Below, one piece after another: positions 52 to 63,376 of a stretch of 64,000 nucleotides of DNA; the first letter of the stretch is position 1, and the number at the start of each line of letters is the position of its first letter. Made by a program: the position numbers and the translations under genes. This stretch comes from Sclerotinia nivalis (lineage: Eukaryota; Ascomycota; Leotiomycetes; Helotiales; Sclerotiniaceae): NCBI GenBank assembly GCA_029531795.1, contig JAPEIS010000009.1, positions 868,001 to 932,000 of the forward strand, written 5' to 3'. Below the pieces are notes generated by a model. It made no database searches. It worked only from the letters and a program-made list of their open reading frames with translations, and was not told the DNA's origin.

Positions 52-484
52 TAAGTTTGTAGACTATACGGTTCAACCAAATATATCGAAAGCAATTATA
101 TTATCAAATGCGGTACAGTATACTCATGCCCTGCAAAGTGCTTACATTGCTATAACCCTCACCCTGTAGATGATCCCAAATGCCCTCTTCGCTCATCAAA
201 AAAGGAAAGGAAATCAAAATCGGAATACCAGGCGATCCGGAAGATCTACAACGAAAATAAGGCTCTCATCTGTATAAAGGCCGGCTATTCAAAACAACAA
301 ACACTCGATCTATAAATGGAAGATACTCCTACTTCCTTTATTTCTATCATACAACCCCGTTTTAGGATCCTTACTTGTATATTTGGGTCCATCCATTCCG
401 CTGCCCCTTCCAGCCTTCGCCCTACTAACCGATTCTCGGAATTCGCAAACCTTTCTAGTATCCCTTTTAATAAATCGAACTAAA
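52..484 (+). pseudogene. LINE ORF1 (gag-like) C-terminal part
   Basis: Frame 1 shows a CCHC knuckle (C-x2-C-x3-H-x6-C, near 139-184) in the context KCLHCYNPHPVDDPKC, typical of Tad1-clade ORF1 RNA-binding proteins. A lysine-rich stretch follows. A TAA at 313-315 interrupts the frame, which then stays open to a stop at 482-484 and so overlaps the start of ORF2 in the next frame. Upstream stops at 22 and 49 show that the copy is dead. The N-terminal part is outside the window. Confidence 0.75.
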
Positions 485-3400
485 CCTCTTTCTATTATTC
501 AAGCAAATGTAGACAAAGGAGCAATTTCACACAAACTCGTTTTAGCCCTAACAAATACAGATCAGATTGATATCATTCTGATCCAAGAATCATATATCTA
601 CAAGGACGTAGCAAGGAAAATCACAAAAACCCACCCCTCTTACGAAACCTTTACCCCTTTGGATAACTAGGAAAACACCCCCCGCGTCCTTACCTACATC
701 AAAAAGGGAATTGGATTTCATACAGACCAATTAAAACCTATTATCTTTCGCGATCTGATTTTCCTACAATTCTTATCCTCAAACCATTCGGTTTTTACAA
801 TTGTTAACATTTACAACGTTCCCCTTAATTACACAAAAACCAATCAAACGATCAACTCGCTTCTGAACCTACAAAAGTTCCCTACAAACCCTACTCTAAT
901 ACAAAACGATTTCAATCTACACCATCCCAATTGGAACCCCCTTTATATACCCATCTCCCCTCTTACAAAACCTTTCGTAAACTAGACCAATTTACACAAC
1001 CTTCGCCTTATCTCACCAATCGGAATCCCAACACATTCAAAAGACAACATATTAGACCTAGTCTTTCTATCAGGTCTATATACAGCGATCTCCTCCATAA
1101 CTGAACACCTGAATTGCATTTCGGACCACAAAACTCTGAAGATTTTTTTATATTGGAATTGCTATGGTATAAAGCCTATTCCGAAATTACGGTTAAACTC
1201 ATTGAACGACAAACTCTTCACAGAACTATTAGCTACAGAGTTGTACAATCTCGATATCCCTGCTAATCCATTCTCTACCAACAATCTAAACGCACTAGCT
1301 CTGAACCTTACACAATCCCTCAGAAATGCTTACAAAGGTTCAGCAAAAAGAACCACGAATGGCCTACTCCGACAACCATAATAGAACAAAGATTGCAATA
1401 AAACTGCACGAATATACAGAATCACGAGGACATTAAAAGCTAAACAAACTTATCGGAAATCGATTAAAAAAGCAAAACAATCCTTTTATTCTTCAAAAAT
1501 TAATAAAATCGAAAATATAAATAACATCTTCCGGATAACTAAATAGCATCAAACTACAGACATCTTCTAATCCCCTCCATTAGTAGATCCCATAGATCCT
1601 AGGATAACAAACACCATCGAAAAGAAACAAAAGGTTTTTGTTAAAAACTTATTAACGAATTCAGCCGAGATCGACAATATCCCTTTCGGAATTCCGATCA
1701 GCCCATCCCGCATTATCCCTTTCCCAAGCATTGATATACAAGACCTTGAAATAACCATTTTGAAAGCAAGTAATACAGCTTCAAGCGCAAACGAGATCCC
1801 TACAAGGATTATCCAAACCACCTGGCCTTTAATCAAAGATCTAATCCTGCTTCTCTTCCAGAATTGTCTTGAGTTAGACCATCACCCAGAATGCTTCCGT
1901 TTTGCTACAATTGCGATCATTTCAAAGCCTAATAAAGCCAATCATACAAACCCAAGATCGTATCGCCCTATCGCACTACTTTCGGTCCTCGGAAAGGGTC
2001 TAGAAAGGCTTATAGCAAAAAAGGTATCATAGCTAGTTCTGAAATACAAAATACTTGCAAACCAATAATTCAATACTTTCCCATTACATTCTTCAATAGA
2101 TCTTACAATATATATAATCTACAATATTAAATCAACATTGAAAGAAGGATTGAAAACGATCCTACTCATTATAAATGTAAAAAACGCTTTCGACGCAGTC
2201 CTCCCTGACCGATTGATTAACCAATTTAAAAAGCAAGATTGGCCGAACAACTTAATCAAATGAATTCAATCCTTTGCTACTAATCGCTTTATTCAAATAC
2301 GATTGGATAACGAAATTGATTCAAAAACCAAATTGAATTGCAATCTACCTCAAGGCTCCCCGATCTCACCAATTCTGTTCATGCTTTACATTGCCCCTAT
2401 TTTCTAAATGGGTAATCCTTCAAAAAGGTTCGGATATGCCGACGATATTGCTCTATTAGCTTCGTTCGACAGTCTACAGACAAACTATGATACACTTCAG
2501 GCCGATATACAGGAAGCCCTGGATTGAGGGAAGTCCGAAGGGATCACTTTCGACCCTAAAAAGTCTGAATTGATTCATTTCTATAAAGGGTACAGCGCTT
2601 TAAATGAGACTCTATCAGTACAGGCCAATAGTCTGAGAATCGAAGAAAGACCCGGCCCTTTTCGATGACTAAGAATTTATTTCGATAGGAAACTAAATTT
2701 CAAACCTTATATCCGAATCTTTATTGCAAAAGCCTTCAAGGTAGCTAATGCAATACGATTTTTTAACAATATATACCACAGGATCCCTTTTTATCTCACA
2801 AAACGGATAGCTATAGTCTATACTTTGAAAAAATGCTATTTCACATCAGAGACATAATAGTCAGGCCGAGATAGACCCAAATTCAACTTCCCGAACCACA
2901 GAATCTCGAACCAGGTAGACAATCATCTGAATCTATTAAACAAAATAGTATTGTCTTATACAAAAGCTATCCTCCCAATATTCAGAACAACCAATGCAAC
3001 AATATTATATGAAGAATCCAAACTCCGACCCTCAGAAATCGAGCTGAACCTAATATTGCAATTATACACTGCAAGAACGATCAGATTGGATCCCTATTAT
3101 CCTCTACGAATTAAAACTAACAAAATGATCAAAGCTAAAAGCCTAAACAAACAATCACCAGATACAAAGTTTACAAAGCTTATTAAGGCCCTACCAATCA
3201 TTAAACGAATTAACCCGTTCGCTTTCCTTGTATGGGAACATAAGGAATCCAGAGAGAAAGCCGAACAATGAGTGGCCGATCCAAAGGGTAGATCAAAAAT
3301 ACAAACGATTGAGGATTTCAAAGCCTTTCATATATTGATCCCAAAAAGTGATATACAAATTTTCTCCGATAACTCCAAAAGCGAAAGTAAGGATGGTGCT

Positions 3401-4252
3401 ACTGGAGACGATTATATTATTATACAATTTGGTATTCAAATAGCCTGTAACTCTTTCTCATTAAGCCTCAACGCAAAGGTTTTCGATACCGAAGCCAAAG
3501 CTACAGTGAACGGAGCGACAAGGGCTCTAACCCTCCTATCAATCAGATTCGCTATAGATCTTTGGATTTTCCTAGACAACTACGAGGTAACCTTTAGATT
3601 GGGTTCTCATTTCAATAGCTTTTCCCAATCGGTTTTCGAGGACTTTTTGATATTAACCCGAACCTAAACTACCAGATCTAGGCTCCCACATATTCCCCTT
3701 GGCAGAATTCGAGTCCGCTGGGTCCCCGGGCATCTCAATATCCTGGGCAACGAAGCGGCCGACAAAGCGGCAAAAGAAGGTACTGCATTACCTTCCCCTT
3801 CAAACCTGATTTGTACGCTAGCATCTCTCAAAAGGATAGTGAAAACCAATGCGCACAAAGCGGATACCCAATTATGAAATACAATCAGCCCTTCGTACTA
3901 CAAGGACTTACTTTACATATATACAGATAATACAGTATCGCTTTCCTTAAAAAGAGCTACACTATATTACATCCTTGCAATTAGATCACAACACAGGGAC
4001 TTTGCAGTATACTACGAACACTTTAATCACACTACTACTTCTATATATTGCTTTTGTAGGAAAAGGAAAACCCCATTACATTTATTCTTTTGTAAAAAAG
4101 GGAAAGCGTATAAAACGCTTACAAAAATACCCCTCTCTGAAGCTATTCTGTGGTTTCTAAGCTTCCCTCTTGGTATAACCAGACTAGCTGAGTGGCTAGA
4201 GGCTACCAAATTCTATATAGAAATTTGCCCACGGTATATAACCGTTATTTAA
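383..4252 (+). pseudogene. LINE ORF2: endonuclease, reverse transcriptase, RNase H
   Basis: One frame (frame 2) runs to a TAA at 4250-4252 and is interrupted only by nonsense codons. The endonuclease is at about 480-1150 (IIQANVDKG, IILIQES, LDLVFLS and a degenerate ISDHK end). Reverse transcriptase is at about 1750-2600, with the palm motif FGYADDIALLA near 2430 and LPQGSPISPILF near 2347. RNase H is at about 3330-3830, ending IRVRWVPGHLNILGNEAADK. A terminal knuckle C-x-C-x7-H-x4-C lies at 4049-4096. The catalytic YADD is intact, but many tryptophan and glutamine codons have become TAG/TGA/TAA. No functional protein is possible. Confidence 0.88.
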
Positions 4253-4270
4253 AAAAAAAAAAAAAAAAAA

Positions 4271-5210
4271 TTTTTCCTTATTATTATTAAGACAGGCGCA
4301 ATTGGTAATTTTAGGGTTGGTAGGAACAGATAGAATATTTAAAAAAAAAAAAAAAGGGGGATATATATAAAAGGCTAATCAATAAAACATGTTTGAGGGG
4401 ATTGGGAGAGAGATCAAGAATAGTGATCTAGTGGACGAAGGAGGCCACAAAATAAAACACAAAGCTATATAGCTCAACCCTTTTCGCAACGGCAATTATA
4501 TAAACCCTGCCCTAACACTCTTAAAAACTGTATATATATATACTACCCCTAACTAGCTAGTACTCCACTCAAAGGCCTAAAACCCCTATGAGCGCCATTT
4601 GCCCAAATTGGAATCGGTGGCTAAAGGTTTCACGTGCACGCACGTGCGGCCTGCGGCCTATGGCGATAAACAAATCAAATCAAATCAAATCAAAAAGACT
4701 GTACAGCGCATTTCTTCAATCTCCACTTGTGCCTCCTAATCGAACCGGGACAGGGGGGTGGGGGTGAAATATAGCGATTAGGAATACCTACCTAGTAAGA
4801 GTGATTTTTGGGTTTGATTCCTGGGGTTTGAATGGCGAATTTTGTTGGTGAATTTTGAATTTGGTTTTGATTTTGGATTTGATTTGTCTGGGCAGTGGGT
4901 GGGTGAGGAAATGTGAGAGTGGAGTTTGGAAGGATGGAGGCTGAGGAGCTGAGAAGGATGAATGGGGATGGGGATGGGGATAACTGAGAATAAAAGATAT
5001 AAATGGGAAAATGAATTTACAGGACGTAAAGCTGGTATGTCAATACCTACCAGGTATTGCTAACTCAAAGATTGTAAGTCTTACCAAGGTAATCTTACCA
5101 CAAGATTTTGACCGAATAAATATACACCAAAATGGATATATATTCCATGCTACAAGTTTGATTGTAATCTTATGACGAAAGAAGTTGAGAATGTGTATAT
5201 CTATATATAC
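4271..5210. other. No gene seen; A/T runs and low-complexity sequence
   Basis: There is a T-run after the LINE tail, an A15 run near 4341-4355 next to GGGGG, and a short (CAAAT)n block at about 4671-4692. CACGTG-rich sequence lies at 4631-4648, followed by a G-rich purine block near 4900-4980. The stretch from 4600 to 4980 is less AT-biased than its surroundings and may be old single-copy sequence. No convincing coding frame, LTR or RNA was found. Confidence 0.5.
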
Positions 5211-5224
5211 ACCCCCGATATCGA

Positions 5225-5317
5225 GGAGGACAAGACTCAACACCTGTACGCGGTGTCCTCTACGAACCTCCAGCTCTTTTATTTAATTATTAGAGTCTGC
5301 AGAGCTAAGTTTGAGTC
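5225..5317 (+). ncRNA. HDV-like self-cleaving ribozyme, copy A
   Basis: The sequence fits the nested double pseudoknot. P1 is 5225-5231 with 5255-5261 (7 bp, terminal G.U at nucleotide 1). J1/2 is AA. P2 is 5234-5240 with 5311-5317 (7 bp). P3 is 5242-5244 with 5252-5254, with a 7-nt loop TGTACGC. P1.1 could be G5246-C5263 and U5247-A5262. P4 is 5271-5277 with 5292-5299, with one bulged U. The joining strand after P4 is CTAAG (5305-5309), where the C would be the catalytic cytosine. Nucleotide 1 of the fold is nucleotide 1 of the element, as in R2 and L1Tc retrotransposons, where cleavage frees the RNA 5' end. Folded by eye only; cleavage is unproven. Confidence 0.8.
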
Positions 5318-6007
5318 ATTTGATGGAGTCGTGGTGATTGGAAGAGGAAGAGGCACCCGATCGCAATGTTTTTTGCCTCCGAGTTGGCTGATGGCAAAGG
5401 CCAGATCTCGGTTTTTTGACAGTCGTATTATCGGATTGTGCTTTCTACAACACTACTTTTATTACGAAACAGAGGACAACATCATCATCTACGACAATAT
5501 ACCACAAAATCATCTTCAAGATCCCTCTAGGGCATCGGGCGCGATTTATCAAATTCGGTTTTAAAGTTCAGGCCTTACCTCCTTCGATTCGAATCAAAAC
5601 AACAACAATTCATATACTTGGAGGAGCTGCATGGAACGACCCGAGTTAATGATGTATCTGCTATAGAATTCGGTAGAGGATATACTACATACAGGATTGG
5701 GGCACCTTGTAGGATCAATATCCCCATGGTTTGGAGGGTTCTATGAAGTCGATATTAGGCAAAGCATAACCGCTGGGAAGTTACGAATAGGACAAAGAGT
5801 TGATGTAAAAGAAGGTTGTTTGGATTTGATTGATAAAGGAATCGGATTTGGAAAATTATGAGTGTAATACTTTGATTGGTATTTTTATCTTTATATGCGA
5901 TACCATATAGAGACCGGGCTTTGCTCCCCAGTATTAATTTTCACTTCCCCCATCAAAAATATATACAAACCTGTATGCTATTTAGATAGTACTACCCATA
6001 ACCATCT

Positions 6008-6033
6008 GTTAAGAGCTCGATTGAGCTCTTAAC
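6008..6033 (+). other. 3'-terminal RNA hairpin of retroelement copy A
   Basis: An 11-bp perfect stem (GTTAAGAGCTC with GAGCTCTTAAC) has a GATT loop. It is followed by the conserved CCGTCCTAGATAGTC block and the ATCA tail. The same position in copy B forms a stem with two compensating base-pair changes. It is a likely reverse-transcriptase recognition structure, by analogy with stem-loop 3' ends of tailed LINE/SINE pairs. Confidence 0.6.
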
Positions 6034-6099
6034 CGTCCTAGATAGTCTTTGACTCAGTGTGGACGTTAATTAAATCAATCAATCAACCCCCGATATCGA

Positions 6100-7574
6100 A
6101 TCACAAGTAATATACATCCCAGCACCCCATTTCATTTTCTTCTCAAAAAATTCTTGAATTCGATTTCTCACGTACCCAAAGTATTCTAACCGCCACTAGA
6201 TAGGTAGATGTCACCTATTCCTGGCGTATTAAATTATCCCAGATTTGAGAACTCCCTGGATTCTGTCACGAATCTGGTATGGATCCATGTGACCCATTGT
6301 CACGTGCACGACCAATCACGTGTCTACAGCTAGTGTATATATACAGTTGCTTCTTACGAGCCGTAGTTCTTTAGTTGTAGATTCTAAGGAATATAATTGA
6401 CCCTGTTAATTCAGCTCTTATACGGCTCTTGTGCGTTACAGATTCCAGAGTGAAAATCTCAATAAACAATAAACTCTAACCTCAAGTAAGATCTTATATA
6501 TATTTCCCATTCTACTTATCTATCTATTTGATAGCCAGACGAAAAAATGCCCGCTAAATCAATCCGATCCCATATTATATGATTCTATCTCAATTCAAAA
6601 GAACCGCCCATCTCATCAACAATCCCACCCCAAACTCCATCTCACAAAATTCCTATCCCCTCATCCAATCCATAAATAACCAACACAACCTCCGCCACAC
6701 TTCCTTCCCCCCAAACCTCATCTATCTCCTTCCTCCCCAACCCAATTCCATCTCCAAATCGAAGTCAATCCCCAACCCCTCTTCCCTATCCCCATACTTC
6801 AACAAATCCCCCCAACCGCCCCCCATGAAATTTCCTCCACCATTCTCTTTAACCTGATGACCCAATCCCACCTCTCACATACAAAAACAAACAACAAAAC
6901 CATTCACCAAAACCTTCACATCCATATCCATTCCCATTTCCACTCTGAACACGCAAACGCGCGCGTCCACAGATATTTCCACTAATCTAGTAGACAAATC
7001 CGCGAAAGGAATGATTAACCCACCTATTTTTTTTTTCCAAAACTTAGATTTCGAGGTTTCCCCATCCGGATCCAAAAGGAAAGGAAAGGAATGGAATTAT
7101 ACTAATACTATCTATCAGCCATTGATATAAAATTCGTCGTTAATCCATCCATAGCTGTTAATTGCGGTCGATAACTTAAGACTCGACTTACATTCTTCTT
7201 TGTAGTTTTGTAGTTGTGAAGCGGGAGCAGCAGCGGGAGTGGGGACTGAGTAGGGATTGTGGCGAGAGGAGATGGGTGGAGGAGAAGGAGAAGAGCGGGG
7301 ATGGATGAGGAGGATGAAGGAGGCGGTTATTACATATTTTATATTTTATAATTTTACATTCCAAAATTACAATACTAATCTAATAATCCAATAAACACTC
7401 CCATACATACACAGCACCTGTCCAGAGTTTCCTGACTCGGAACTCCAAAAAAATATAAAAATAATTCTAAATAGATATCAAAACATATTCCTCCCCCGCC
7501 CCCCGGAAAAAATCTACAAACAGAAATAAGAACAAAAAGTATCTATCTATCTATCCATCTATCCATTTCATTAC
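6100..7574. other. No supported gene; C-rich relic and low-complexity sequence
   Basis: The stretch from 6580 to 6860 is C-rich on the plus strand and gives a proline/asparagine/serine-rich open frame with no recognisable domain. The stretch from 7215 to 7325 is a purine (GGA-rich) block. CACGTG-like boxes occur near 6301-6322. No element ends or RNA genes were recognised. Base use here is closer to the host sequence than to the RIP-mutated transposons. Confidence 0.4.
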
Positions 7575-7822: not shown

Positions 7823-8582
7823 CCAATACCCAGTTCTATTCTTATCACGAGATAGTACGATCACAGAGCACGTTGAAGAGATCGGGGAGAAGATGGTTAT
7901 AGTGAAGTGATAGAGTTAAGTGTATATTGAATGAGAACTGTGTTGAATGACCTGCCCTCGATCTTAAGGATCGTGGGTGGTATATAGAGACTTAATGGAA
8001 GCTATCTAGCCGACGAGAGGCATCAATTAGGCTAGGCTTCGATCTGTATGATATCAGGAGAGGGTTGACGATCGTAAGGATCGACAGGATCTAGAAGGGC
8101 CTGATAACTAATGCAAAATGAGGGGTATAATGATCGTGGAGGATGTGTGTGTGTGTGTGTGTGATATTTTTCGTCCGAGGCTCTGTGCAAAACACAGGCC
8201 TCAAATTCCCAATTGGGACAAAGGACGCCAGGGAAGGAAAGCCCCTGGATTTCTAACTAGCTAATCTAAGTTTATTAGTATTATATATATACTAAATGCT
8301 TTAGTAGGGTTTATATAATTGCTGTTGTGTATTGAGTTAATTCTTTAAGTAAATATTTCAGCTATCCTTTATAATATAGTTAGATTCTTCGATTCCTGAT
8401 TTTTTCTTCTTTGTTATCGCAATCAAGCTTTTTAGTATGTTTTGTTAATATAAAGTTTTTTTTTATTTTTTTTAAAAAGCTTATACAAACTCAATCTTTC
8501 CGAAACAAAACTCAACGTCTTATACAAAGAAAATTCAAAAATAAAATAAAATAAAAATAAAAAATCAAAGCAATCCTTCAAT
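7823..8582. other. No gene seen; hairpins and a GT microsatellite
   Basis: Short inverted repeats of the type CGATCnTAAGGATCG occur near 7958-7971 and 8069-8084. A (GT)n run lies at about 8142-8162. The A-rich run (AAAAT)n at 8537-8566 borders the 3' end of LINE2. No coding frame is convincing. Confidence 0.5.
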
Positions 8583-14972: not shown

Positions 14973-15042
14973 TGCATAGTCTGATTGATTGATTGATTGA
15001 TTGATTTAACGTCCACACTGAGTCTAAGACTATCTAGGACGG

Positions 15043-15065
15043 CTAGGGGCTCTATGAGCTCCTAG
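15043..15065 (-). other. 3'-terminal RNA hairpin of retroelement copy B
   Basis: A 10-bp stem (on the plus strand CTAGGGGCTC with GAGCTCCTAG, loop TAT) occupies the position of the copy A hairpin. Two pairs differ in a compensating way, and one becomes A.C on the RNA strand. The conserved CCGTCCTAGATAGTC follows on the minus strand. Confidence 0.6.
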
Positions 15066-15984
15066 TTGATGCTATGGGGAGTTGTATGCTAGCTAACATA
15101 CAGTTTGTATAGTTTGGGTTTCTTTTCAACCCTTGAAATGTTGATTGAGGGCAAGTGAAAACTAATACTGGGGAACAAAGCCCGATATCTTCATCCTCTA
15201 AGACCTTTCCTTCCTCGCTCTCCCCCTACCCCTTGCTAATTAAAGCATCCCACTGATATAATCTTCTTCTTCGACCCAATCTGCTATTCCGACACCACTT
15301 CCCACAAAGGTCAAGAGTCATCTCCGTCAAGATTACCTCCAGCACAGCAAAAGGGTCCTCATACTAATGAAAAGCAACTGGAAGGCACCACTCTCCTCAG
15401 CTCGAACTCATTCATTAGCTCCTTTGCATGCCTTCCTAGGTGTGATGATCTCCAGCTTTGTTTGAATGTAAATAATCGAAACCGCCGAATGGAATATCGG
15501 TCATTTGAATGTAATGATAGTGGGGCGTGGCCCTAACCCTACCCACACACGTACAAAAAATATTTTCGTAAAATCGAGGAAAAGGCGTAATATCGTATCG
15601 ATGCCCAAAGCATAGCATTAGTTGATAGATGATGGTATTCTCTGTTTCGTGATAATCGTAGTGTTAAAATGAATGTGTTTTCGATAATCGATTGTCGAAA
15701 AAAGGTATAAAATGCGAATAAAACAGTAGCAAATTCCGTATCGAAAAGACCCTTCTGGAATAGAAGGGACTTACTAGGCGTATCATACCTCGTATTGAGG
15801 TAATAGTCGATGGCAGATGTTGAATCTAACCAGGGCTTCTGTAGCCATCGTCCGTATTTTGGGTTGATGTTCGTTCATCCTTTCGAAGATATTGATGCTG
15901 TAAAATCGTAATAACCCCTCCATCGTGAATATCGTAATCGGGAAACCCTCTCTCTCTCTTCCAATGTATCCGATTCCATCAAAT

Positions 15985-16070
15985 GATTCAATCTTAGCTC
16001 TGCAGACTCTCAATAGAGAGCTGGAGGTTCGTAGAGGGCACCACGTACAGGTGTTGAGTCTTCGCCCTCC
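15985..16070 (-). ncRNA. HDV-like self-cleaving ribozyme, copy B
   Basis: This is the same fold as copy A. P1 is 16064-16070 with 16033-16039 and has a covarying pair (A-U in A, G-C in B) and the same terminal G.U. P2 is 16054-16060 with 15985-15991, with one C.A mismatch of RIP type. The P3 ACC/GGT stem has loop TGTACGT. P4 has a perfect CTCTC/GAGAG stem and TATT loop. CTAAG is in the joining strand (15993-15997). J1/2 has one extra G. The P2 mismatch makes this copy probably weaker than copy A. Confidence 0.75.
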
Positions 16071-25434: not shown

Positions 25435-28052
25435 GATATACTACGAAATCGTTGTGTTGAGATCTAGCTGCTAGGATGTATTCTAATATTGTTTGTTCAA
25501 AAGAAAGTATGATCGATTGATTGCTATAAATTATAAAAAGATCATTGTAGTTTAATAATATTGTAATTGTTTATAATCTTGATTTTGCTAATTTAGTATT
25601 TGATTTAGTAATCCTTTTTAAGAAGGCGAAAATGTAAATAGGATTAGGTAAGGATGGGAGTATTGTTCCTTCTTTAATTGTTTTATTCATTGTTTCGTTT
25701 CTGGGGATATCTAAATGTTTAGAAATCTATCGGATTCGAATTGAACCAGGGCGGGTATGTGGTAAGCGAGGTTTGAAGGGTCAAGCTGTAGTTAATTTGC
25801 AGAATTCTTTAAATATTGATTAAAAGGATTCAATCGAATGAAAGCCTAAATGTATAGCAATTTCCAGATTATTCAAGAAAATCCAAAGATTTGTAGCAAA
25901 TCTAGTTGAGGATAGTTGAATTATTGTTTAAGCATCTTTCAGAATTATAATTGTTTCGGTATCGAAGATTTCAGTATTATAACCTAATGAGAAAATTTAT
26001 CGATCCATTTGCAGATTGTATTGATAAATCATTGATTTATCTTCTGTAGTATTATCCAAAGCTTCGTTTTTCGAATCATTGGAGAAGATTTGTAAATCAT
26101 TTTTTGGAATTGTAGATATAAACCTTTCGAAATCTTTAACTGTTTGATCTTTTGAACGATCAAAAGAATCATTGATCTTGATTTCTGTAATAATATAAAG
26201 TTCTTTGTTTTTCCAAAGAAAAAATGCAATTGGATTAATATATTCGGTTTTTGGAAAGATTAGAATAATTCTTGAAAACCTTGATTCGGCAATTCTGATA
26301 TTAGCTTTAATTAGGATATTTTTGGTTCGGATTCGAAAAGGGTGTTTAGGATCGAGCCGAATTATTCGAACCGCAAAACTTTGGAATATCAAATTGAATT
26401 CAATCTCGAGAAGTATCAAATTTGATTCTTTGTATAAAGCAATAATATTAGTTGTATAGAATATAGAAAGGATTATTCGAATATTAATTAGTATAATTTT
26501 ATTTAAAAGTTTCAAATATCTATTTATCTAATTCGAGATTATAAAGTTTCGATCTCGTTTTCTAATTCGACCAAACCATCAGGTTTCGGCTGTAAAATAG
26601 TATTTCTTCAAAATACAAAAAGTAATTGCTCTTTGAAGCAAAATTGATGGGATGCTTCGAATTGTCTTTCCAAGCGAATGCAAAGCATTTGCAATTGTAA
26701 GGGCTTTAATTATAAGGATTTAAATATAAAATTTGAAACTCAATTCTTTATCGAAGTAGATTCCTAATTATCTTAGCGGATTTGATTTTTCTGTTACTGA
26801 AAGATTTTCTGTATAAATGATTAGATTTTCGATATCTTTTCTGAAGCTTTTGAAGAAATATATCAGTTCGGACTTCTTAGGATCGAAGGTGATTCTTTCA
26901 GATTTGCTCTATTTCAAAGCCTTCAACATTTCAGATCATAATTGATCACAATTAGATTGTAAGTTTGAAAAAAAAGCTATTAATGCAATATCATTTGTAT
27001 ATTCAAATCTTCGAATAGGATTGTTTAATCAAAATAAAGGGGCTATATAAAGTATAAAAAGGATGGACGAAATTGGGGAACCTTGTGGCAAACTATATCC
27101 AATACTAGTATTGGGCTTTGTTTTGCTGTTAAGCCGAATACGAACTAATCGATTTGTCGAAAACGATTGTATTTATCGAATTAGATTGTCAGGCCATCCT
27201 TGTTCTCTAAATCGATGAACTAAGCATCCTAGGAGAACAGTATCAAAAGCATCTTTGATATCTATAATTAATAAAGTAGTTTTAGAATTTGAATTCAAGA
27301 TCATTTTTATATCATATGTAAAGCAAGTTGTGAGATCTATCGATGAATGTAAAGGAAGCGTTCCGAATTGTTACTTAGCTAGTATTTTGAGGGTTATAAT
27401 AATCCAAGATATCTTTTTAGTAATCAAATATTTGAGGTTTTTTTCTAATATCGAAAGTAAGATTATTAGTTTATAGGATCTAAGGTTCGTATAATCTGAT
27501 TTGTTCGGTTTTGGGATGATAATTACAATCGCTGATCGAAAGTATTCAGGGTGATAATTTATTTCAAGACATTTTTGAAAAAGTTATAGAATACTGGATT
27601 CAATCTGTAATTATACTAATTGTAATATCTTGATTAGGATTTTATCTATACTAAAAACTGTATTATCTATATCGAAGATAACAGTTTGAATATCTTGAAT
27701 TGTAATTTCAGGGAATAAAATGGAATGGATAAAGATTATAGAAGAATCGAAAAGGATATTATCGATTTTAGTTGTATTTGTTAGTAGATTATTGATAAGT
27801 AGATCTTTTTTGGTTTGAATAATTGTAGTAAAGGAATGATCTAAAGGGTTTGATAGAAAAGGAATTCGATATATTTCAATTGATTGATATTATTTTGTTA
27901 TTTTAAAGATATTCTTTATTTCCTTAACCAAATCAAGTTTAAATAGCCAGAATTCCTTTTTCGCTTTCTTAATAGTTTTTCGAAGATTCTGTTTTGATTT
28001 TGTAAAGTTATTTGTTCGATTTTTCTGAATAGTTATTCGATAGGCTTCGATA
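25435..28052 (-). pseudogene. LINE2 ORF2, reverse transcriptase and RNase H
   Basis: The minus-strand Tad1-like pol is parallel to LINE1. It begins in the pre-RT linker (IKKAKKEFWLFK near 27960) and continues with RT motifs SYKLIILLS, LPQGSPISSILF and a decayed palm box FEYTNDIALIA (Asp to Asn) near 26990. A region LNKIILINIRIIL to WKNKELY follows at 25997-26515, then RNase H with IRIR..SKHLDIPRNE near 25720. No frameshift is evident, only stops and missense changes. It is more decayed than LINE1. It is split on the left by element C and on the right by D/E. Confidence 0.85.
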
Positions 28053-50785: not shown

Positions 50786-52232
50786 TATAATCAGAGGTTT
50801 ACGAAGTCGGGTAGAGAGGATTCGAATTGTTTCAATATTCAGATATTCGTTTTACAATAAAACAATGGGATTGAAGATTTATTGATCTTCGTTTGTTTTA
50901 TTAATAATAGTATTAATTGTATTAATTAGAAATTAAAAGAAAGAAAGAATCAGAAGGGCAAAAGATATAATAACGGAAACACATCCGTATAGTGTCTGCC
51001 GGGGCTGAAAAGTTTCGTTTTTAAATCCTATGGATAATAAGAACGATCGATTGATCAATAAAACGCGATAATAAACGCGTTTTTCGAAAAATTCAATTCT
51101 TCTGCTATTGTGGAGTGCTTGATCGTGGAGGATGTGGTGATCGTAGATCACCAGTCATGTGAATAGGTATCATGTGATTACCCGTGACAATTCTATAATC
51201 TACTTATCTAATACTTGATTTAATTCTTATTTATATTTTAAATTTCCGCATATATATAAACTCATACAAACTTATACAAATAATACTCTTCAATCTCCAT
51301 CACAATCATAATCATAATCACAATTGTAATCACAGCCTCAATACAAATACAATATAAAACCCAAATCCAAGCCCAAGCTCAAATCCAAATCCAAATCTCC
51401 AACAACTTCAATAAACAACGGCATCGAGCAAACATCATCGAACAAACATCATAAAATAAATCCCTTCAAATCACCCAAGACTCATTACAAAGCGACCCAC
51501 AAGATATTGTCTGTCCTCCGAGGAGATATACTTTGTACCCAGCTACAAACTAATACTCGTAATTTTACATTGAAAAACGCCCAAGCTCTATATCATACCA
51601 TGTCTGTCATGTCTTAAATTCTTATACCTAGATACCTACCTACTTATACATACTCCGTATACTAATTTTCATTATTCTCATATTCTCTTTCTCATTCAAG
51701 GGTATAAAGCGCTACCGCACTCACTCCACTCTCGAAATTTTCATATCTATCGCATCCAATCGCTTGCATACAGATAGTACAATGCCAGTATATACATACA
51801 AATGGCCTCCTTCTCCCTTTCTACCCTCTCCCTCTCTCCTTTTTGTGCTGCTGAATGCGCACAGTATCGCTAACTCCAATCCCATCCCATATCTATTTTT
51901 TACATGTACGATTTCATGAAGTAACTCCCAAGATAAACTCCATTTCCATACCCAGATTCATCCAATCAACCAAGGAGTCCCGTTCAATAAGTTGAACCAA
52001 GAACGAATGCACGAAAAAAAAACGCTCGCTATGCATATTTGTATGCCTCGACCCATGTATATATTTACCCTTACTCAATTGTGAGTATATGTGCCGTTTG
52101 CGCCCACCAATTAAATATCTACTTTATTTGTACCATTGCGTCCATACACATGTTGACTGTGCTATTCATAAGTTTGCGTCAAAGAATCATACTTGGAGCG
52201 CTAATTTTGACAAAATATCAATGTTGGGTAGT
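50786..52232. other. Cluster edge and intergenic sequence
   Basis: The first ~100 bp may still be LINE2. A TGTCACGGG end on the minus strand at 51181-51189 looks like an LTR start, but no partner end or duplication was found. CCAAATC-type direct repeats occur near 51359-51397. The downstream part is 3' flank of the glycosyltransferase gene. No gene seen. Confidence 0.4.
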
Positions 52233-63294: not shown

Positions 63295-63376
63295 GCCTGC
63301 TTGGCGCAGTGGTAACGCGTAGCACTTGTATGTAAACGAAATGCTAAGATCATTGGTTCGATTCCAGTAGTAGGCA
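63295..63376 (+). tRNA. tRNA-Thr (anticodon TGT) with 10-nt intron
   Basis: It folds as an 82-nt cloverleaf. The acceptor GCCTGCT/AGTAGGC has one G.U. The D arm GCGC/ACGC has a mismatch next to loop AGTGGTA. The anticodon stem TAGCA/TGCTA holds a loop CT-TGT-A-A interrupted after position 37 by TGTAAACGAA. The T arm is ATTGG-TTCGATT-CCAGT, with discriminator A73. The intron position is canonical for nuclear pre-tRNAs. Internal A/B-box promoters are present (GGTTCGATTCC exact B box). Confidence 0.88.

Follow-up and report, generated by a model that had tools for sequence, protein, structure and literature searches.

The first 93 nt of a short repeat in the genome of Sclerotinia nivalis (positions 5225 to 5317 of the window, by which we mean the whole 64,000-nt stretch of DNA analysed here) can be folded into a structure resembling the HDV ribozyme. 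The locus raises the question whether this sequence is a self-cleaving ribozyme, and what such a ribozyme would do at the very first nucleotide of a dispersed, non-coding element.

The preliminary description of this DNA had stated that all five helices of the HDV double pseudoknot can be drawn at 5225-5317. Our reading of the sequence and the parsed related copies (see below) agree with this. The parts of the fold are the following:

5225 to 5317, plus strand: predicted HDV-like ribozyme (descriptor match; covariation across families)
between 5224 and 5225, plus strand: predicted cut site, directly before the 5' strand of P1
5225 to 5231, plus strand: P1 5' strand GGAGGAC, partner of 5255-5261; relatives show two-sided changes at positions 3-6
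5234 to 5240, plus strand: P2 5' strand GACTCAA, partner of 5311-5317; two-sided changes in relatives
5241, plus strand: extra C separating P2 from P3 (C in 77, T in 8 of 85 copies), as described for published fungal HDV variants (PMC5640933)
5242 to 5254, plus strand: P3 ACC/GGT with loop L3 UGUACGC (3/3 pairs in 82/85 copies; U..G in 82/85)
5255 to 5261, plus strand: P1 3' strand GTCCTCT (sequence reading; parsed copies)
5262 to 5267, plus strand: J1.1/4 ACGAAC, the AC of which pairs with GU of the loop to give P1.1 (ACGAAC in 78/85 copies)
5268 to 5302, plus strand: P4 with its loop (from the MFE structure), differing in sequence in F1b, F1c, F2, F3, F4 and F5
5305 to 5310, plus strand: J4/2 CTAAGT, whose C at 5305 is the candidate for catalysis (70 of 79 copies have C here)
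5311 to 5317, plus strand: P2 3' strand TTGAGTC (descriptor; parsed copies)

P1 comprises 7 bp and ends at the cut site in the pair G1.U37, P2 comprises 7 bp (5234-5240/5311-5317), and P3 consists of 3 bp (5242-5244/5252-5254) closed by the 7-nt loop UGUACGC at 5245-5251. These dimensions, as well as the candidate catalytic C within CTAAG after P4, had been given before and were all found in the sequence. Two pairs of P1.1 (G5246-C5263 and U5247-A5262), absent from the preliminary description, can be added. U21 and G26 of L3 correspond to U20.G25 in the numbering of HDV. The best drawing of P4 pairs 5268-5277 with 5292-5302 and has a single bulge besides one C.C mismatch. The MFE structure of 5261-5308 concurs with this drawing, its stability being barely above that of shuffled sequences (z-score -1.79; 15 of 200 shuffles were as stable).

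A descriptor search had been named in the preliminary description as a check of the fold. The descriptor that we used contains rules for P1, P2, P3, the U..G of L3, P1.1 and a C-N-A-R junction; it was written with the site already in view, and its L3, P1.1 and J4/2 rules follow the anatomy of HDV. Over both strands of the window it matched once, at 5225. In the control of 956 dinucleotide-shuffled 64-kb strands 28 matches were obtained, corresponding to 0.029 per strand. When an earlier version of the descriptor was relaxed, the start positions matched on the two strands numbered 2+0 if the L3 rule was dropped, 2+1 if the P1.1 rule was dropped and 6+10 if both were.

With Rfam at the gathering threshold no HDV call was made in the whole window, the only call being a tRNA at 63295-63376, and no HDV match came up in a scan of 5100-6200 at E<=10. 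The same holds true for five of six relatives scanned at E<=10. The relative L160 matches RF02682 end to end from G1 with 22.6 bits (E 0.22), below the gathering score of 44, which is a curation threshold and not a structural feature.

For the search for relatives the host genome was covered with 50.3 Mb in 31 contigs. A protein encoded in the window shares 91% identity with a protein of Botrytis cinerea, 90% with one of Botryotinia globosa and 80% with one of Rutstroemia, the top match reaching 92%, and on these grounds we place the host near Botrytis. A 22-nt core pattern with at most three mismatches was found at 186 sites, and the reversed pattern used as control was found at none. A relaxed pattern gave 169 sites compared to 56 in the control; among the 100 of these 169 sites that were listed, many belong to one unrelated repeat and the sole addition was a variant of the family F4 described below. 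In viral contigs the core pattern did not occur.

Altogether 86 ribozyme stretches were gathered, of which 85 could be parsed; L152, which has neither P3 nor L3, was left out. The copies had been found via similarity or via the P3-L3-J1.1/4 core, so that the constancy of the core partly reflects this selection. The pairing of P1 and P2 played no part in choosing the copies. An alignment of the families with MAFFT was abandoned because it misplaced P1, the linker between P1 and P2 ranging from 2 to 7 nt. Instead, pairs were counted with an anchor script that tries 16 offsets for P1, keeps the best one and likewise keeps the best placement of P2', which somewhat favours pairing.

All seven pairs of P1 are kept in 82 of the 85 parsed copies, and the three copies with 6/7 pairs are single decayed or altered ones. 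P1 3' strands of four kinds occur among the relatives and make up five pairings, each strand being complemented by its own 5' strand: GGAGGGC/GCCCTCT in F1c, GGGATGC/GCATCCT in F2, F3 and F1b, and GGCCGGC or GGCCAGC, each with GCTGGCT, in F4. The only copy of F5 combines GGCCAGC/GCTGGCT in P1 with GCC/GGC in P3. When the strands are swapped across types, only four to five pairs are formed, the exceptions being F1 with F1c (6-7 pairs) and F4 with F5 (7 pairs). Between families, standard pairs with both sides changed are found at positions 3-6 of P1 and at positions 3-7 of P2.

Downstream sequence is available for 84 copies, and 79 of them form at least six of the seven pairs of P2. P2' directly follows the expected junction in 74 of these 79 and was placed elsewhere by the script in five. 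Of the five copies that fall short, four were cut too short to include P2'; the fifth is F5, in which, by eye, AGAGA stands after a long P4, beyond the range of the script. In F4 one position of P2 is an A.A mismatch. Relatives lacking P1/P2 complementarity, which the preliminary description had named as an argument against the fold, did not appear.

The cut-site pair, a purine at position 1 with a pyrimidine, is G-U in 84 of the 85 copies and A-U in one. P1.1 reads G-C/U-A in 82 copies and G-U/U-A in three, and like the U..G of L3 it is so nearly constant that it provides no covariation. At the position of the catalytic C, the 79 copies with six to seven P2 pairs have C in 70 cases and T in four, and in five the script misplaced P2'. 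The GAA in J1.1/4 and the AG preceding the catalytic C are nearly constant across the parsed copies.

The covariation support comes from differences between families, which are few in number, because most differences between close copies are C>T/G>A (904 of the 1223 changes counted in 39 copies) and changes within a family are consequently uninformative in this respect. This share of 74% (F1 copies L009-L047 and the window copy, without L040) is what repeat-induced point mutation would leave. Changes at G/C sites relative to the majority amount in the 39 F1 copies to 17/1638 in positions 1-93, 175/3198 in 94-276, 550/6513 in 277-660 and 186/3159 in 661-858, though the cells counted are not mutually independent and an influence of base context is possible. 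Judged by sequence comparison, the HDV-like nested double-pseudoknot fold at 5225-5317 is well supported, and self-cleavage 5' of G1, its predicted activity, is very likely.

The folded sequence forms the beginning of an element that we call F1. The element and its surroundings consist of the following features:

5211 to 5224, plus strand: 5' target-site duplication ACCCCCGATATCGA, exact repeat at 6086-6099
5225 to 6085, plus strand: F1 element, non-autonomous and SINE-like, about 860 bp, with a (TCAA)n tail (other copies; ORF check)
6024 to 6085, plus strand: 3' end, with GACGTTAATTAAATCAATCAATC, that F1 has in common with LINEs A, D, E and C5L (82-94% over 52-91 nt)
6086 to 6099, plus strand: 3' target-site duplication ACCCCCGATATCGA, exact repeat of 5211-5224
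14991 to 16070, minus strand: second F1 copy, subfamily F1c, ribozyme module first, P1 GGAGGGC/GCCCTCT (window matches)

P1 begins, as had been described, at the first base after a perfect 14-bp target duplication. Between 5225 and 6085 there is no ATG-initiated ORF of more than 57 amino acids. With its LINE-shared 3' end, its target duplications and its lack of coding capacity F1 has the properties of a SINE-like element mobilised by LINEs; it is not a SINE in the strict sense, as a simple search allowing one mismatch found neither an A box nor a B box of a Pol III promoter.

For the analysis of the boundaries we used the best 40 of 175 candidate F1 copies (query 5225-5500), the window copy included. 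Choosing the copies by similarity to 5225-5500 favours complete 5' ends and under-counts 5'-truncated copies; the other families were found via the core or via similarity to F2. All 40 F1 copies match from query base 1. Of the 39 copies besides the window copy 38 have the same outline, and L040 is divergent past position 331. In 34 of the 40 copies a duplication of 11-16 bp ends exactly before G1; in the remaining six (L019, L022, L035, L039, L040, and L045) no exact abutting duplication was found. Conservation jumps from background to 0.97-1.0 at +1 in every family (n=40 for F1, n=29 for F2/F3/F1b, n=12 for F4/F5 and only n=4 for F1c). Family members reaching upstream of G1, the second observation that the preliminary description had listed as contrary evidence, were thus not encountered. 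In one F2 copy, L139, the first two bases are replaced.

The F1c copy starting at 16070 differs from the copy at 5225 by a compensatory swap in P1, A6-U being exchanged for G6-C. The script detected no exact abutting repeat around 14991-16070. By eye the flanks share ATCAGACTATGCA, which is one base off the 5' junction and lies partly within the tail.

Apart from the common 3' end, a 72-nt part of F1 (668-739) also matches C5L (76%). We considered whether F1 could be a 5' piece of LINE A, D, E or B; this was rejected, as those LINEs have other 5' ends and duplications of their own. Four LINE copies with the shared tail and without the ribozyme module (A, D, and two of E) are flanked by 14-nt duplications, and in these copies 3 to about 13 variable bases are followed by a shared ACAACAAATTTCG-like start. 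LINE B, of which one copy was analysed, has another start, its own duplication and no ribozyme module. Pfam matches were obtained for four of seven LINE protein pieces: reverse transcriptase and RNase H in D, endonuclease in B, and endonuclease and reverse transcriptase in C5L. One C5L copy is located in the window just upstream of F1 (364-4689, plus strand); it shares 90% identity over 4.3 kb with the LINE at C5 of the host genome. Eight equal-score reverse transcriptase matches on C9, C16, C19-C22 and C26 apparently represent one LINE family; seven of them have open frames of 1265 amino acids and one has an open frame of 816 amino acids.

F4 is a second SINE-like family headed by the predicted ribozyme. 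It is about 890 bp long and matches LINE B in the final 250 nt (80%). In both of two copies the duplication abuts G1, with 9 nt being exact (script, fetched flank) and 13-14 nt being recognised by eye. These copies, L123 (C7:640140) and L124 (C11:784670), both directly precede a LINE B 5' end. The F4 duplication stands between F4 and LINE B at these loci, as if the same target had been used twice. Fragments related to LINE B or to the 3' end of F4 (74-76%) are present in the window at 8153-8385, 27403-28032 and 50789-51176 (minus strand), several pieces of LINEs thus being located within it.

The third arrangement is that of F2, a non-coding module of 1.2 kb which begins with the predicted ribozyme and whose fixed 3' end is fused to LINEs that belong to three families and are truncated to different extents. 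Like the LINE partners and F4, it does not figure in the preliminary description, which was concerned with one element. A 1210-nt F2 query (from C3, starting with G1) matched 43 places, and at 32 of them the match begins with the first base of the query. Near-complete copies spanning 1 to at least 1202 account for 22 of the 43 places, and one more begins at 3. No ATG-initiated ORF of more than 51 amino acids is present in F2. Of 13 copies whose 3' junction was read, 12 keep the 3' end of F2 and one is broken at 466. In 11 of these 12 copies a LINE follows, entered at a different point in every case; for one of the 11 the evidence is weak. The partners of the 12 copies are C5L (four), LINE D (four), LINE B (two), a C5L-like LINE by a weak match (one; 69% over 90 nt) and an unplaced sequence (one). 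F2 ends with ..GATTTGCAAATATAATATTATCTCTG or ..ATTATACCTG (e.g. L125, L127), and there is no poly(A) before the start of the LINE.

For two F2-LINE chimeras both ends were in hand. Judged by eye, the chimera on C1 lies between 13-nt repeats that differ at one base; for the chimera on C5 no target duplication was found. Our first idea for C5, namely that F2 is the 5' UTR of one LINE, was given up, as C3, C16 and C1 carry F2 on other LINEs. Two F2 copies in opposite orientations directly adjoin each other at C11:2265900, one extending leftward from ribozyme base 1 and the other rightward from 548.

We consider it probable, at roughly 0.83, that 5225-5317 is an HDV-like self-cleaving ribozyme located at nucleotide 1 of a LINE-copied non-autonomous retroelement, and that F2 and F4 share this module. 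From these structures and boundaries we infer cleavage and release from read-through transcripts, both already proposed in the preliminary description, as well as template jumping, in the following order. RNA would be transcribed through an insertion, either from upstream or from an internal promoter. The F1 RNA would fold and cut itself between 5224 and 5225, which would free an RNA beginning with GGAGGAC. The LINE-like 3' end of this RNA, together with its (AATC)n tail, may recruit a LINE reverse transcriptase, and the enzyme would copy the RNA up to the ribozyme-made 5' end. The copy would then be inserted with a target duplication of 11-16 bp. The same ribozyme module would head the RNAs of F4, with its LINE B tail, and of F2, and the reverse transcriptases of several LINE families may have jumped onto the fixed 3' end of F2.

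We considered three alternatives to this interpretation. First, the pseudoknot at the end of the template could stop or position the reverse transcriptase during end-joining or template jumping, cleavage being lost or secondary. The joining of F2 to several LINEs, with 22 of 23 full copies matching from base 1, would fit such a role, and studies of R2 are described as linking the structure of the RNA 5' end with insertion (PMC11331408). The catalytic C and the bases of L3 would, however, be superfluous for a mere stop structure, and we regard this possibility as unlikely. The low number of G/C-site changes in 1-93 fits a catalytic constraint, yet it is also compatible with a structure of this kind.

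Second, the fold could be an internal promoter or a protein-binding structure, in which case the 5' end would be a transcription start and no self-cleavage would take place. A transcription start could likewise yield a constant 5' end, and the trypanosomatid Pr77, which contains an HDV-like ribozyme, is described as a promoter as well (PMC4035085, PMC8190864). What is kept here, however, is the catalytic core of HDV (U21/G26, P1.1, C81 before an A, the 3-bp P3, and the 7-bp P1 with G.U at the cut site), and it is kept despite two-sided changes in P1 and P2, which is more than a promoter alone needs. We judge this explanation to be as improbable as the first. The roles of promoter and ribozyme are compatible with each other. 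Third, a chance resemblance to HDV within a repeat would agree with the lack of a significant Rfam match and with a descriptor that was composed with the site in view and in looser versions matches more places, but it is made very unlikely by the 0.029 matches per shuffled strand and by the two-sided changes of P1 and P2 in F1c, F2, F3 and F4.

Among the non-LTR elements with which the predicted ribozyme at nucleotide 1 of F1 may be compared, R2 encodes its own protein. It likewise has an HDV-like ribozyme at its 5' junction and is described as inserting into 28S rDNA (PMC3774820), whereas F1 is dispersed and non-coding. In the trypanosomatids, L1Tc/ingi, NARTc and SIDER, that is LINEs and short derivatives, are likewise reported with an HDV-like ribozyme at the 5' end (PMC4035085). 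There the LINE and the short element both carry the ribozyme according to this source, in contrast to the LINEs A, D, E and B, whose 5' ends are readable and lack it. The organisms are also different, and the ribozyme belongs to another subtype. The statement of the preliminary description that HDV-like ribozymes are known at the 5' ends of R2, L1Tc and other non-LTR elements is in accordance with these sources (PMC3774820, PMC4035085).

HDV variants from fungi were described in 2017 (PMC5640933): 230 variants from 26 species are reported, with an extra nucleotide, mostly C, between P2 and P3, typically with C-G as cut-site pair, and with loop E partly replacing P4. Two representatives are described as cleaving in vitro as two-strand constructs, and older descriptors had missed the variants, partly owing to the extra nucleotide. 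Their gene associations are given as widely variable; the main text of this paper contains none of the words 'retrotransposon', 'transposable', 'transposon' or 'retroelement'. The predicted ribozyme of the F1 type resembles these variants in being fungal, in having the same pseudoknot and in the extra nucleotide between P2 and P3, and it differs from them, as they are described there, in the pair at the cut site, which is G-U here.

HDV-like ribozymes in fungi and at the 5' ends of non-LTR elements elsewhere are therefore known already. Our literature search, which covered titles and the openings of abstracts and few subscription journals, did not recognise a fungal retroelement with an HDV-like ribozyme, the combination of the two. 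Hence the view that such an element is little described holds for the link to a fungal retroelement; for the fungal HDV variants it does not, since these were published together with in vitro activity in 2017 (PMC5640933).

In its anatomy, and in its anatomy only, F2 resembles MINE of Magnaporthe, which is described as the full-length 1.1-kb non-coding WEIRD RNA fused to a truncated LINE, MGL (PMC2104539). In both cases a full-length non-coding RNA of 1.1-1.2 kb is joined directly to a variably 5'-truncated LINE. F2 joins LINEs of three families, and for MINE the source describes WEIRD with MGL (PMC2104539). Solo copies of WEIRD were, according to the same source, not found by its authors.

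From this resemblance a wider picture can be sketched, which we offer tentatively and hold to be possible at somewhat less than even odds. Ribozyme-capped non-coding RNAs would be parasites of fungal LINEs without an autonomous member and with a self-cut 5' end. The reverse transcriptases of several unrelated LINEs would jump onto the 3' end of F2, the SINE-like families F1 and F4 would stem from chimeras whose junction was fixed and which were then amplified via the LINE tail, and WEIRD would be a member of this group. If this is true, the inserted copies would themselves release the RNA, which would account for the missing 'gene' of WEIRD.

With the finding at 5225, HDV-like ribozymes would stand at the very first base of retroelements in an ascomycete, and a use would be suggested for the published fungal HDV variants. 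The ribozyme would be carried by the non-autonomous RNAs, and the LINEs that share their ends would do without it where the 5' end can be read. This bears on the question of how the 5' ends of chimeras produced by template jumping are set, MINE (described 2005-2007) being an example, and it suggests how copied fungal RNAs may gain a precise front end.
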